From: Spirochaetia bacterium
GTDB taxonomy: Bacteria; Spirochaetota; Leptospiria; Turneriellales; JAOUOS01
NCBI GenBank assembly: GCA_029880265.1
Contig: JAOUOT010000001.1
Location: forward strand, 83,485-147,484
Length of the DNA stretch: 64,000 nt
Direction of reading: 5' to 3'
Of the stretch, positions 2,387 through 6,743 are shown piece after piece. Every line of letters begins with the position of its first letter. Within the stretch, counting starts at the first letter, position 1. Position numbers and translations under genes: made by a program. The notes beneath the pieces were generated by a model. That model ran no database searches and had not been told where the DNA came from. It saw only the letters and a list, made by a program, of their open reading frames with translations.

Positions 2387-3706
2387 ATGATAGACCAACA
2401 TAATAAATTAAAACAAATTTGGAATATTATTATTTTCTTACTGGTGATGATAGAGGCTCTAGAGGTGCCGTCTAGGTTTGTTTTGAAATATGAATTAAGC
2501 GGATTTCTTTTGCTTATTGATTTTATAACGCCATTATTCTTGATTGCCGATATAATTTTAACGATACATACAAAAACGGTTATAAGCGGACGTCTTTCTG
2601 AAAATAAAAAAATTGTATTTCAAAATTATTTGCGAGGATGGTTTGTTTTTGACCTGCTTTCATCTCTGCCTTATAATTATTTTACGGGAGATTATCCAAT
2701 TTTTGGAGTCGATAAAAATGGAAACTTTGCTTTATTCATGGAAATAATGCTTTTTTTAAGACTACTTAGACTTATTCATATTCTTGATTCAAAAAATATA
2801 ACTCATCGCTGGAAAATATTAAAAATGATAAATCCAAGCGTATTAAGACTTGGTTTTTTTATTTTTTGGATCATGATTGTCGCTCACTGGATGGCATGCG
2901 GATGGCTTTATCTGGATGGTATTGAAAGAATTGGCTCAAGAGCAAACCAATACATAGTGTCTTTATATTGGACAATCACAACGCTTACAACCGTTGGCTA
3001 TGGGGATATTACGCCTAAAACCATCCCCCAAACAATATACACTATGATAACAATGATTCTTGGCGTTGGAATATACGGTTATGTTATTGGTAACGTGTCT
3101 TCTTTACTGGCGAATATTGATATATCAAAATCAAATTATCAAGAGAAAATGGAAAAAATAAACGCCTTTCTAAAATACCGCGAAGTGCCTGAAAATATAA
3201 AAGAAAGAGTTATTCATTATTATGAATATTTATGGGATAGCCGCCTAGGTTCAGACGAAACACAAATGATTTCTGACTTACCGCCTTCAATAAAAATAGA
3301 TATTTCAATGCACTTAAATAAAAATATTATTGAAAAAATACCCATGTTTAAGGGCGCTTCGCAAGAAATGATTAAAGCTCTGGTTCTAGAGCTTAAACCT
3401 GTTGTTTTTACTCCTGGAGATCTCGTAGTTGAGAAAGGCGAAATTGGCGAAGTTATGTACTTTATAAGCAAGGGAGATCTTGAAGTATTGGCTGAGCCGA
3501 ATAATAAAGTTGTAGCTTCGCTTTCTGAGGGCAACTTTTTTGGAGAAATCGCTCTTTTAGAAAGTTCGCCCCGAACAGCTACAATTCGAGCGGCAGATTA
3601 CTGCGATTTATATATGCTTCATAAAAACGCTTTTGAAAAAGTTTTAAAAGACTATCCTGATTTTGCCTCACAGATAAGAAAACAAGCAGCGAAAAGAAGA
3701 AAATAA
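2387..3706 (+). CDS. Cyclic-nucleotide-gated K+ channel-like protein (six TM, C-linker, C-terminal cNMP-binding domain; SthK/LliK-like)
   Basis: Filter TTLTTVGYGDITP (TVGYGD at 2990-3007), S4-like LFLRLLRLIHIL, phosphate-binding cassette FFGEIALLESSPRTATIRA. Confidence 0.9.
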   Translation: MIDQHNKLKQIWNIIIFLLVMIEALEVPSRFVLKYELSGFLLLIDFITPLFLIADIILTIHTKTVISGRLSENKKIVFQNYLRGWFVFDLLSSLPYNYFTGDYPIFGVDKNGNFALFMEIMLFLRLLRLIHILDSKNITHRWKILKMINPSVLRLGFFIFWIMIVAHWMACGWLYLDGIERIGSRANQYIVSLYWTITTLTTVGYGDITPKTIPQTIYTMITMILGVGIYGYVIGNVSSLLANIDISKSNYQEKMEKINAFLKYREVPENIKERVIHYYEYLWDSRLGSDETQMISDLPPSIKIDISMHLNKNIIEKIPMFKGASQEMIKALVLELKPVVFTPGDLVVEKGEIGEVMYFISKGDLEVLAEPNNKVVASLSEGNFFGEIALLESSPRTATIRAADYCDLYMLHKNAFEKVLKDYPDFASQIRKQAAKRRK

Positions 3707-3711
3707 AAACC

Positions 3712-4845
3712 TTATCCAAAATAAGTTACCGCTCGCGGAACAGGTATTTCTAGTACGAAGCTATTCTTTGATTCATGCACGGTCAAAATTTTATCAAAAG
3801 CCATAAATAAATCGTCAACGACTTCAGGCGTGACATGAAAATCAATCACCTCTCTCTCGTCATTTATCATGCGGCCGGTTATACTTTTCAGTTTTTCTCC
3901 GCCAATTAAATTTCCATAAACGCGCGTGGCCCCGTGAGCTCCGGTATGCATAGCGGTATTGATGAATTCATCGCCTAAACCGCGTCGCGTTATAAGTTTT
4001 AAGTTAATTAAATCAGATTTTTGTTTTCTTTTAAATTGCCTCACAGAAGCAAGTCCTATATCGGCCATGCGCCAGCTTTTACTTTCTTTTAGCTCGTCAA
4101 TAGCCTTGACAATCTGCTCTGTGGTAGCTTCTGTATGAGAAGAACTGACTGTAGTATGCAAATTTATAAACCCCGTGGGAACTTTAGTTGTATAGATAAA
4201 ACCCATGCCAGGAGCAAAAAGACGGCCCGCTTCAACCATTACATTGAAAATTCTATCGCACTCCATTTCGTCTACAACCACATCAATTATTTCTTTTTCA
4301 GGATTAACGGCAATCTTTAAGAGTCCCATTCGATCTCGAACGCCTTTACCTTCGCCAAAATGGATTATAGGCGCGGCCGCCCCTTCGCGCACTGCGGCTG
4401 CCGCAATTTCATCGGCTTTACCGCGCTGACAAACGCATGTTATCAAACTCAGATTTACCTGAGGCTTTACTTGAGCGCTTTTTTCTACAACTTCAAATTC
4501 TTTATGATTTGTAGATAAGTATTCTGTTGTCCATGCCTTAGAAAGAGGTATGCTTTTTACCGCGCCAATTGCTCTTTTATTAATTTCAGTTACGAGAATT
4601 GATTTCTGAAGAACATTCTCAGCCGTCTCTTTTGTTGTGAGAATTAACATACTTTCCATTTCCGGAGAAATTGAAAGCGGCTTAAACCATCCCTTTTTTC
4701 CCTGGCGCATACTGCCGCGAGCTTTAACAATGATACCAAACAAACCGCCGGCGGCCTGCACTTGACTGATTACTTTTTCGGCAAAACCTTTTCGAACAAT
4801 AATTGAAATCAAAGCCAATTTCTGATGTTTATTTAATACCGACAT
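3712..4845 (-). CDS. Protein with three tandem PII-like domains
   Basis: Three ~100-aa repeats with PII-like strands (LALISIIVRKGFAEKVI..., VNLSLITCVCQRGKADEIA..., INLKLITRRGLGDEFI...) and T-loop-like spacers. Confidence 0.75.
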   Translation of the reverse strand: MSVLNKHQKLALISIIVRKGFAEKVISQVQAAGGLFGIIVKARGSMRQGKKGWFKPLSISPEMESMLILTTKETAENVLQKSILVTEINKRAIGAVKSIPLSKAWTTEYLSTNHKEFEVVEKSAQVKPQVNLSLITCVCQRGKADEIAAAAVREGAAAPIIHFGEGKGVRDRMGLLKIAVNPEKEIIDVVVDEMECDRIFNVMVEAGRLFAPGMGFIYTTKVPTGFINLHTTVSSSHTEATTEQIVKAIDELKESKSWRMADIGLASVRQFKRKQKSDLINLKLITRRGLGDEFINTAMHTGAHGATRVYGNLIGGEKLKSITGRMINDEREVIDFHVTPEVVDDLFMAFDKILTVHESKNSFVLEIPVPRAVTYFG

Positions 4846-4850
4846 TGAAC

Positions 4851-6743
4851 TTAAGCCTCTACTTCTTCTTCAGTTTCTGACGATTCGCTCTGTTGTACTA
4901 GTTTGCCGACGATTAGAACCGTTAAAATCGGAAATACCGAAGCCATTGCAAGAACTCCAAAACCTTCGAGAGCGCCTATTGATTGACCTATTCCTAACCC
5001 CATGGCCAGCACCAAAGGAACCGTGATAGGTCCCGTTGTTACGCCGGCGCTATCCCAGGCAAAATTAACAAAGTCTTCTGACGATATAAAAGTTAAAACA
5101 AGCAGTATCATATATGGGGGCAACAGCATCCAGCTTAGGGGCAGATCAAAAACCAGCTTGGCGACGCCCGCGGCGATACCAATGCCAACGCCTGCGGCGA
5201 CAGATTGCATTAACAATGATTTTCTAAACGAACCGATAGTTATCTTTTCTACTGTCGCCCCTAAAGCATTTAAGGCGGGCTCGGCCAGTGTTGCGCTATA
5301 GCCCAAGGCAAAGCCGAATAAAATAACCGCAATTTGCCCAATAAATTTATTTTCAAACAAGGGGCCATGCATGCCAAGAGCACCATACGGTTTGATTGCG
5401 GTAAAACTTGAAGAAATATTCTGACCTACCTGACTACCCAGAGGCTCAAGGGCCAGAAATATTCCAAGCATAAAAAGCGACATACCAATAAGAGCGAAAA
5501 ATATTCCAATGGCTATTTCATCGCTGCCTTTAATCTTTTCTCTTAATATTCCTCTTAATACGAGAAATAACAGCAGACAAAGCGGCAATATCGCCCGAGC
5601 GGCGCCTATTAAAGAATCTTTAAGCTTCTCAAAAAAATCAAGAGCGTCATCCCAGAAACGCAAATCGGACATTTTTGCTCTAAAACCATATCGTTTCTTA
5701 ACAATGATCGAGGCGTTATCAATGATAATTTTGCCCTCGTCAAGTTTCATATCGCCTTTAAAAGACAACTCAGATCCTGCAGGCACCTTGCCGCTTTTTC
5801 TAAATTTTTCAAAGTCTTCAAAGCTATAACCCGTTTCTGCGAGTTCTTTTGGCTTGTTTTTTTCTTCGCTTAAAGCGACATGAGCGCTTGCTGCTTGCTT
5901 GTCAAATTTCAATTTCGAGTTTGGCCTTCCGTAATAATCATCAAGGCCCAAATGACCAAAGGCCAATGAAAAAACCGCTATAATAGGAAAAAGCGACGCC
6001 AATGTTACGATTCCAAATCCGGTTCCCCCTGAGCTGCCTGAAACAATTCGCGAAACTCCAATGCCGAGCGCCAGTACCAGGGGAACGGTTACCGGCCCGG
6101 TGGTTACCGCCCCGCAATCCCATGCAAGACCAATTACCGGGTTAAGCGCCTCATTAAAATTCGCAAAGACGGTAAAAAATGTTAACAATATGACAAGGGG
6201 GTAGATAAGTACTTTCAAGCTCCATGAATACAGAAATCGCAAAACGCCAAAAATTACCGCTATGCCAACGCCAACGCCTACGGCAATCACCAGTTGACCG
6301 GCAAACTCATTTAATAGAGAATAAAGAAGAGGAGCGCTATCGGGTTCTATATATCTTCCGGCTAGCTGCAAAGTGGCAATAGCCGGTTCTGCAAACGTGG
6401 CCCCAAGACCCAACATAAAAGCAAAACTTAAAATAATAATTAATCCGGCTTTTTGTGGCAAAGTAGCGCCGATAGTTTCGCCAAAGGGCATTAATCCCAG
6501 AGTGAGCCCTTCCATAAAAAGCATTAAGCCGAATAAAACGATAGCAATACCTACGGCAATCATAATAGAATCTACTATTGGCAGCCTTAAAATTATCAAC
6601 TGGAACAGAATAAGATATGTAATTATCAGCCAAACATTTTTTATCTGTTCATAAATACGATCGCCAAGATATGGTTTGAGAATGGTCAAGCGCTCTTTCC
6701 ATGTCATTTTTATTTTTGGCAATGTATTTTTAATCGCTTCCAT
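4851..6743 (-). CDS. DUF1538-family membrane protein, two DUF1538 repeats fused (putative cation/proton antiporter)
   Basis: Two homologous membrane halves, each with LGATFAEPA / YSATLAEPA and WDCGAVTTGPVTVPLVLALG / WDSAGVTTGPITVPLVLAMG signatures. Confidence 0.85.
   Translation of the reverse strand: MEAIKNTLPKIKMTWKERLTILKPYLGDRIYEQIKNVWLIITYLILFQLIILRLPIVDSIMIAVGIAIVLFGLMLFMEGLTLGLMPFGETIGATLPQKAGLIIILSFAFMLGLGATFAEPAIATLQLAGRYIEPDSAPLLYSLLNEFAGQLVIAVGVGVGIAVIFGVLRFLYSWSLKVLIYPLVILLTFFTVFANFNEALNPVIGLAWDCGAVTTGPVTVPLVLALGIGVSRIVSGSSGGTGFGIVTLASLFPIIAVFSLAFGHLGLDDYYGRPNSKLKFDKQAASAHVALSEEKNKPKELAETGYSFEDFEKFRKSGKVPAGSELSFKGDMKLDEGKIIIDNASIIVKKRYGFRAKMSDLRFWDDALDFFEKLKDSLIGAARAILPLCLLLFLVLRGILREKIKGSDEIAIGIFFALIGMSLFMLGIFLALEPLGSQVGQNISSSFTAIKPYGALGMHGPLFENKFIGQIAVILFGFALGYSATLAEPALNALGATVEKITIGSFRKSLLMQSVAAGVGIGIAAGVAKLVFDLPLSWMLLPPYMILLVLTFISSEDFVNFAWDSAGVTTGPITVPLVLAMGLGIGQSIGALEGFGVLAMASVFPILTVLIVGKLVQQSESSETEEEVEA

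Follow-up and report, generated by a model that had tools for sequence, protein, structure and literature searches.

A fused DUF1538 transporter and its three-domain PII-like neighbour as a putative transporter-regulator unit

The control of nitrogen and carbon uptake by PII-type proteins is textbook knowledge. On the minus strand of a 64,000-nucleotide stretch of DNA from a Spirochaetia bacterium (contig JAOUOT010000001.1; referred to here as the window), a gene for a 630-amino-acid (aa) membrane protein of the DUF1538 family (4851..6743) is followed, after a gap of 5 bp, by a gene for a 377-aa PII-like protein (3712..4845). The question raised by this locus is whether a DUF1538 transporter has a PII-type regulator of its own. 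An initial annotation, made from the sequence alone, had described the two genes and read them as a single-chain UmpAB-type antiporter with a covalent pseudo-trimeric PII regulator. Both open reading frames are present at these positions, and our analysis partly supports that interpretation, with the corrections that there is probably one main ligand site and that the pairing is family-wide rather than local. We consider it reasonably probable, but well short of certain, that the two proteins form a transporter-regulator unit in which a DUF1538 cation/proton antiporter of the UmpAB type is controlled by a dedicated three-domain PII protein.

The transporter and the PII-like protein

The Pfam family DUF1538 (PF07556) matched the whole 630-aa protein with 347.7 bits (E 2.4e-104) against a gathering cut-off of 22.6 bits, and both halves lay above the cut-off. 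The first half (5961..6626, minus strand; G000:C37:89445-90110; E 1.1e-51) is UmpA-like and carries the motifs FAEPA and WDCGAVTTGPVTVPLV; the second (4905..5573, minus strand; G000:C37:88389-89057; E 9.1e-55) is UmpB-like and carries LAEPA and WDSAGVTTGPITVPLV. The pair of WDxxAVTTGPxTVPLVLAxG signatures reported in the initial annotation is present, as WDCGAVTTGPVTVPLVLALG and WDSAGVTTGPITVPLVLAMG, but the second reads WDSAGVTT rather than WDxxAVTT. The best NCBIfam matches were to UmpA over residues 31-265 (half 1) and to UmpB over residues 378-620 (half 2), below the cut-offs of those models, in agreement with the single-chain fusion that had been proposed. The soluble segment described between the halves (residues ~268-370; 5634..5942, minus strand) was also recovered, as a short helix followed by a beta hairpin at 324-350 (strands 324-335 and 338-350) in an AlphaFold model of the transporter made from a 50-sequence alignment (predicted local distance difference test [pLDDT] 84.5; predicted template modelling score [pTM] 0.83). 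This segment is poorly conserved and is missing from short-form relatives. These results support the identification of the 630-aa protein as a fused UmpA/UmpB-type protein. No solved structure similar to it was found in the PDB by sequence or by fold, the best Foldseek probability being 0.23; the Foldseek matches to Na+-PPase, CLC and MATE, at probabilities of 0.23 or less, were not used. Borrelia BB0017, considered as a relative, was rejected as a YitT/DUF2179 protein.

The only biochemical point of reference is UmpAB of Halomonas zhaodongensis, which, as the initial annotation had noted, was reported to carry out Na+(Li+,K+)/H+ antiport: in everted Escherichia coli vesicles the preference was Na+ > K+ > Li+, and umpA and umpB were the only genes subcloned (PMC5484666). 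Both systems have two homologous DUF1538 halves, which in UmpAB form a heterodimer, and both carry the AEP and WDxxxVTTGP motifs, which are common to most of the DUF1538 family. In Pseudomonadota the split pair is also followed by a PII gene, of one domain, whereas the window protein is one chain with a soluble linker, scores below the equivalog cut-offs and has a three-domain PII partner. By homology with Halomonas UmpAB, the 630-aa protein would be an antiporter.

The 377-aa protein on its own gave no match in Pfam or NCBIfam and only weak sequence matches in the PDB (0.036), so that single-sequence searching was too weak and profiles were needed. With a family profile built from 79 relatives, PDB entries for PII chains were recovered at 3.6e-6. 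Pfam P-II did not match the window protein itself but did match 55 of these 79 relatives at E values up to 0.1 (best, 1.1e-14). AlphaFold, given the 79-sequence alignment, returned a model (pLDDT 87.9, pTM 0.86) with three beta-alpha-beta-beta-alpha-beta copies, ferredoxin-like and in the PII order, at residues 10-100, 129-228 and 276-374. Foldseek matched this model to single PII chains at a probability of 1.00, with target template modelling scores of 0.6-0.74; its top rows by E value were other ferredoxin-like repeats with root mean square deviations of 15-22 and were uninformative. Profiles of the three domains matched one another at HHalign probabilities of 97.7-99.2 and matched the PII partners of one and two domains (see the next section) at 97.8-99.3. 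The three PII-type repeats, all of which had been predicted, are thus not due to chance. They lie, all on the minus strand, at residues ~5-112 (domain 1; 4510..4833), ~127-232 (domain 2; 4150..4467) and ~273-374 (domain 3; 3724..4029). The rigid model of three domains suits a covalent pseudo-trimer with putative three-fold packing.

Breadth and inheritance of the gene pair

We read the loci directly in three sets: 60 from Spirochaetota, the 80 best DUF1538 matches from one genome per species across bacteria, and 35 from plasmids and Pseudomonadota. A few records fall in two sets and the 80 loci were picked by their likeness to the three-domain type, so the counts that follow are not population frequencies. 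A PII-type gene lay directly 3' of the DUF1538 gene, on the same strand, in 167 of the 174 operons examined, and the pairing therefore extends far beyond close relatives of the window. Among the seven exceptions, two may be truncated at a sequence end (L140, L232), two are clusters (L083, L103) and three are truly without an adjacent PII gene (L095, L096, L110). In the clusters (genomes G225 and G263), the PII gene sits between or before DUF1538 genes, an arrangement that suggests a single regulator around which the transporter was duplicated in tandem. L095 and L096 come from a single-contig genome (G283) in which two DUF1538 genes lack PII neighbours and one two-domain PII gene lies elsewhere (L097), a natural case of separated partners. 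Apparent transporter-PII fusions in L116, L126 and L143 were rejected as over-long overlapping frames.

At the level of whole genomes, DUF1538 was found in 86 and a relative of the PII-like protein in 82 of 298 genomes of the phylum, a nearly identical set, with the two in the same places. The record titles of the 80 loci include Bacteroidota, Chloroherpetonaceae, Gammaproteobacteria, Verrucomicrobia, genera of Planctomycetes, Desulfobacterales, Gemmatimonadetes, Latescibacterota, Cloacimonadota, Zixibacteria, Bdellovibrionales and others. No third gene is conserved across phyla: the flanks vary without a common family, and only a K+ channel recurs, within Spirochaetota. We found no description of a DUF1538-PII pairing in the open-access literature (subscription journals and preprints lay outside the search), and no mention of a PII gene in the UmpAB paper (PMC5484666).

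The PII partners form a series that the initial annotation had missed. Where umpA and umpB are separate, the PII gene behind them encodes a single domain (~116 aa); there are at least 27 such cases, all in Pseudomonadota, and in L202 and L205 the product carries the annotation P-II family nitrogen regulator. Two-domain PII partners, likewise called P-II family nitrogen regulator, go with one fused-transporter clade (~500 aa) that has many members in Spirochaetota and Clostridia. This clade resembles the window pair in transporter family and gene order and differs in its shorter transporter, which lacks the long linker, and in its separate position. The other fused clade, with transporters of 495-740 aa and three-domain PII partners of 365-436 aa, spans more than 10 phyla. 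One-domain PII genes accompany a fused transporter in three Pseudomonadota cases (L210, L215, L236). A strict tie between the long linker and the three-domain PII form was rejected, as genus g5 (L065-L068) combines a short transporter with a three-domain PII protein.

In a tree of 78 transporters, the three-domain set formed one clade (Shimodaira-Hasegawa approximate likelihood ratio test 99, starred) as did, separately, the two-domain set. A quick method was used for this tree, which has long branches, among them those that part the window transporter from the split UmpAB clade, and only its coarse pattern is used here. The program counted three changes of PII domain number on this tree, or two without L216, whose two-domain PII protein was rejected as an over-long reading frame of a one-domain protein. 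So few changes, about two over the whole transporter tree, mean that the partners have been inherited together. Within the three-domain set, the transporter and PII trees correlated with a Mantel r of 0.55, a value reached in 0 of 2,000 permutations, in a test that mixes coevolution with shared species history. Both trees group the window with two genomes of its own order and then with Chloroherpetonaceae (Chlorobiota; L122) rather than with other Spirochaetota; since the two agree on this nearest outside relative, they suggest that the pair has been transferred between phyla as a unit.

These patterns bear on the possibility that the PII-like protein never contacts the transporter and is only cotranscribed with it, as a separate metabolic sensor whose target would be the K+ channel, an enzyme or a transcription factor. 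Such a role would be in keeping with the many soluble targets of canonical PII proteins and with the few genomes in which the genes are apart (G283, G297), and an interaction between transporter and PII protein is something that we infer. It is hard to reconcile with near-universal adjacency over more than 10 phyla amid otherwise unconserved surroundings, or with the coinheritance of PII domain number and transporter clade, and we regard it as very unlikely.

Unequal PII domains and the predicted ligand site

The initial annotation had expected a PII trimer built in one chain to have three nonequivalent ligand sites. The conservation pattern does not bear this out. Among the 79 three-domain proteins, 12 of the 106 columns of domain 2 are conserved in at least 90% (G155, P159, G166, G168, R170, R177, K184, E185, G207, P212, G213 and G215), as are only two columns in domain 1, apart from the start Met, and two in domain 3. 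The B-loop-like PGxG motif occurs in domain 2 of 72 of the 79 proteins and in domain 3 of none, where a GAxGA turn is kept. For domain 1, 38 of 79 proteins show the strict PGxG pattern and GxG survives in most of the others; the window protein has lost the motif, reading NKRAIGAV at that position. Two-domain PII proteins show the same bias, with an intact second and a degenerate first domain, and the intact one corresponds in alignment to domain 2 of the three-domain form (HHalign 99.3). As conservation is concentrated in domain 2, and the B-loop is lost from domain 3 and, in the window protein, from domain 1, a single main site is the better reading: there is probably one main predicted ligand site around domain 2, with the other domains as degenerate scaffolding.

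A further seven columns at or above 90% (A240, Q244, A248, D250, G254, W258 and R259) lie between domains 2 and 3, in a stretch (residues ~240-264; 4054..4128, minus strand; consensus ASxEQIIxAIDxLKGxxxWR) modelled as helices at 242-253 and 258-264. It stands outside the PII fold and would be an addition to it and a candidate docking element.

The motifs by which GlnB and GlnK are recognised, namely the B-loop TGxxGDGKI, the C-loop RxR and T-loop Tyr51, are not found in the window protein; domain 2 reads LFAPGMGFIY with no RxR after it, and the loops between strands 2 and 3 contain no Tyr in any of the three domains. A separate, canonical GlnB is encoded in the same genome (C37:334725-335042). 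The absence of canonical ligand motifs from all three domains, and the loss of the B-loop motif from two of the three in the window protein, would suit a PII-like protein that is an obligate structural subunit or assembly factor with decayed ligand sites, and not a ligand-driven switch. Set against that are the tightly conserved GxGxR (166-170), KE (184-185) and PGxGF (212-216) elements of domain 2, which point to a selected binding site, and the activity of UmpAB in E. coli without its PII protein (PMC5484666). Antiport measured in the absence of the PII gene shows that transport itself can do without the PII protein, which is what one would expect if that protein is a regulator. A purely structural role is therefore rather unlikely.

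Cation-related neighbours, mechanism and meaning

On the opposite strand of the window (2387..3706, plus strand), convergent with the pair and ending 5 bp from the PII stop codon, lies a gene for a voltage-gated-type K+ channel with a C-terminal cyclic-nucleotide-binding domain (Pfam Ion_trans, 4.1e-20; cNMP_binding, 1e-18), a possible third partner. Its recurrence beside the pair, which had also been overlooked, extends to five Spirochaetota lineages, the window included. Homologues adjoin the pair on the same strand ~1-80 bp after the PII gene in genus g5 (L065-L068), at 129 bp in L070 and at 61 bp in L075, and convergently at 17 bp in L074 and L185; in L072 and L197 one lies ~4 kb upstream of the pair. 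No such channel was found in the two-domain loci. Because the channel occurs in only 56 of 248 genomes of the phylum, mostly in one or two copies, we estimate, without a formal test, that its adjacency in five lineages is well beyond chance. In L200 (2360-7477), a CPA1-type Na+/H+ exchanger with a cyclic-nucleotide-binding domain lies directly upstream, its gene running into the 5' end of the transporter gene; further on in this locus, the PII reading frame that follows DUF1538 is split into two pieces. In L111 (4058-6368), the gene for an NhaC/Tet(35)-type Na+/H+ antiporter is preceded, at a distance of 28 bp, by a two-domain PII gene of the DUF1538-partner family, and the DUF1538 gene of the same genome is L110, one of those without an adjacent PII gene. 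Together, the channel, the exchanger and the antiporter point to monovalent-cation homeostasis. No riboswitch or other RNA was found at gathering score upstream in 12 related loci, the window giving only chance-level matches.

In the mechanism that we favour, the DUF1538 protein would be an UmpAB-type transporter made of a single chain. It would most likely exchange monovalent cations for protons, moving Na+ and K+ out and H+ in, and the PII-like protein would be its dedicated cytosolic regulator. The three PII domains of one chain, probably packed like a normal PII trimer, would do the work of the one-domain PII homotrimer in umpA-umpB-PII operons. The ligand held in the cleft around domain 2 would be a small molecule, an adenine nucleotide being the most plausible candidate, and the strand 2-3 loops, the helix between domains 2 and 3, or both would then bind to the transporter's cytosolic surface and so switch its activity. 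Control would probably be inhibitory, as it is for GlnK on AmtB and SbtB on SbtA. What the computations show are the genes, their folds, the pairing, its coinheritance and the asymmetry of the domains; the ligand, the substrate of antiport, physical contact between the proteins and the sign of control are the elements of this scheme that we infer.

The premise that PII proteins gate the membrane protein encoded next to them has precedents, since GlnK and SbtB block or lock the neighbouring transporters AmtB and SbtA (PMC8352866, PMC10710835). Like the window gene, glnK shares an operon with the gene for a membrane transporter, and GlnK, a PII-type protein, blocks that transporter through its T-loops. 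GlnK, however, is a one-domain homotrimer with ATP, ADP and 2-oxoglutarate sites and a uridylylated Tyr, whereas the window protein has three fused domains, neither the GlnK motifs nor a Tyr in the strand 2-3 loops, and a transporter unrelated to AmtB. SbtB is likewise a PII-like partner, one that binds an adenine nucleotide and docks on the cytosolic side of a secondary transporter, the cyanobacterial bicarbonate transporter SbtA. It differs in being a one-domain homotrimer, in some cases with a C-terminal redox R-loop (CGPxGC); the window protein has neither feature and ends in PVPRAVTYFG, and the trimeric SbtA did not come up among the relatives of the DUF1538 transporter by sequence or by fold. 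A PII-type gene also adjoins the proton/cation antiporter CzcABC in the case of PII-NG (PMC7726332), which has one domain and a different transporter family; the window neighbours are a DUF1538 protein and a K+ channel, with no heavy-metal CzcABC pump.

Several observations weigh against the favoured mechanism. The transporter does not reach the equivalog cut-offs for UmpA and UmpB (NF041627 and NF041628; 215.6 versus 490 and 185.4 versus 500 bits), so its substrate could differ; the UmpA cut-off is very narrow, given that 0 of 399 Pseudomonadota genomes searched reach it. The canonical PII motifs for ATP and 2-oxoglutarate (TGxxGDGKI, RxR) are absent, and the Mantel correlation mixes two causes, as noted above. 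Finally, a two-domain PII chain is unable to close one three-fold ring, and trimer-like docking may therefore not be the common rule: either three two-domain chains build two rings or the docking geometry differs.

The low equivalog scores also open the way to a DUF1538 protein that moves something other than Na+ or K+, such as an organic acid, ammonium, bicarbonate or a divalent metal, and that is still gated by its PII partner, in which case the UmpAB antiport reading would fail for the fused long form. Only one DUF1538 pair has been assayed so far (PMC5484666), long branches separate the window protein from the split UmpAB clade, the transporter has no fold match in the PDB, and PII proteins usually report the carbon, nitrogen or energy state. 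On the other side, the AEP and WDxxxVTTGP motifs are shared through most of the family, and K+ channel and Na+/H+ exchanger neighbours recur. A different substrate thus seems unlikely to us, though a serious alternative to monovalent cation/proton antiport under PII control.

A broader proposal, which we put forward tentatively and think possible rather than probable, is that the whole DUF1538/UmpAB antiporter family is under direct PII-type control and that, in one ancient clade, the regulator is a single-chain pseudo-trimer with one working ligand site. This regulator would be joined with the cyclic-nucleotide-gated K+ channel in one nucleotide-sensing cation module, in which K+ would enter through the channel and leave through the PII-gated antiporter. 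If so, the path from a symmetric to an asymmetric sensor would be visible in the natural series of one, two and three domains, and the two-domain form would imply an assembly other than the usual PII trimer. The three forms are also a ready-made experiment on PII trimerism, in which the single chain allows each site and loop to be mutated separately. As DUF1538 has no match among solved structures, a structure of the complex would yield a new transporter fold together with its regulation.

The DUF1538-PII pairing extends the already known pairing of PII proteins with transporters and suggests an unstudied family of metabolically gated ion transporters. It would assign a function to many proteins annotated just as DUF1538 or as P-II family nitrogen regulators, and a conserved PII partner for cation/proton antiporters would extend PII control to ion and pH homeostasis.

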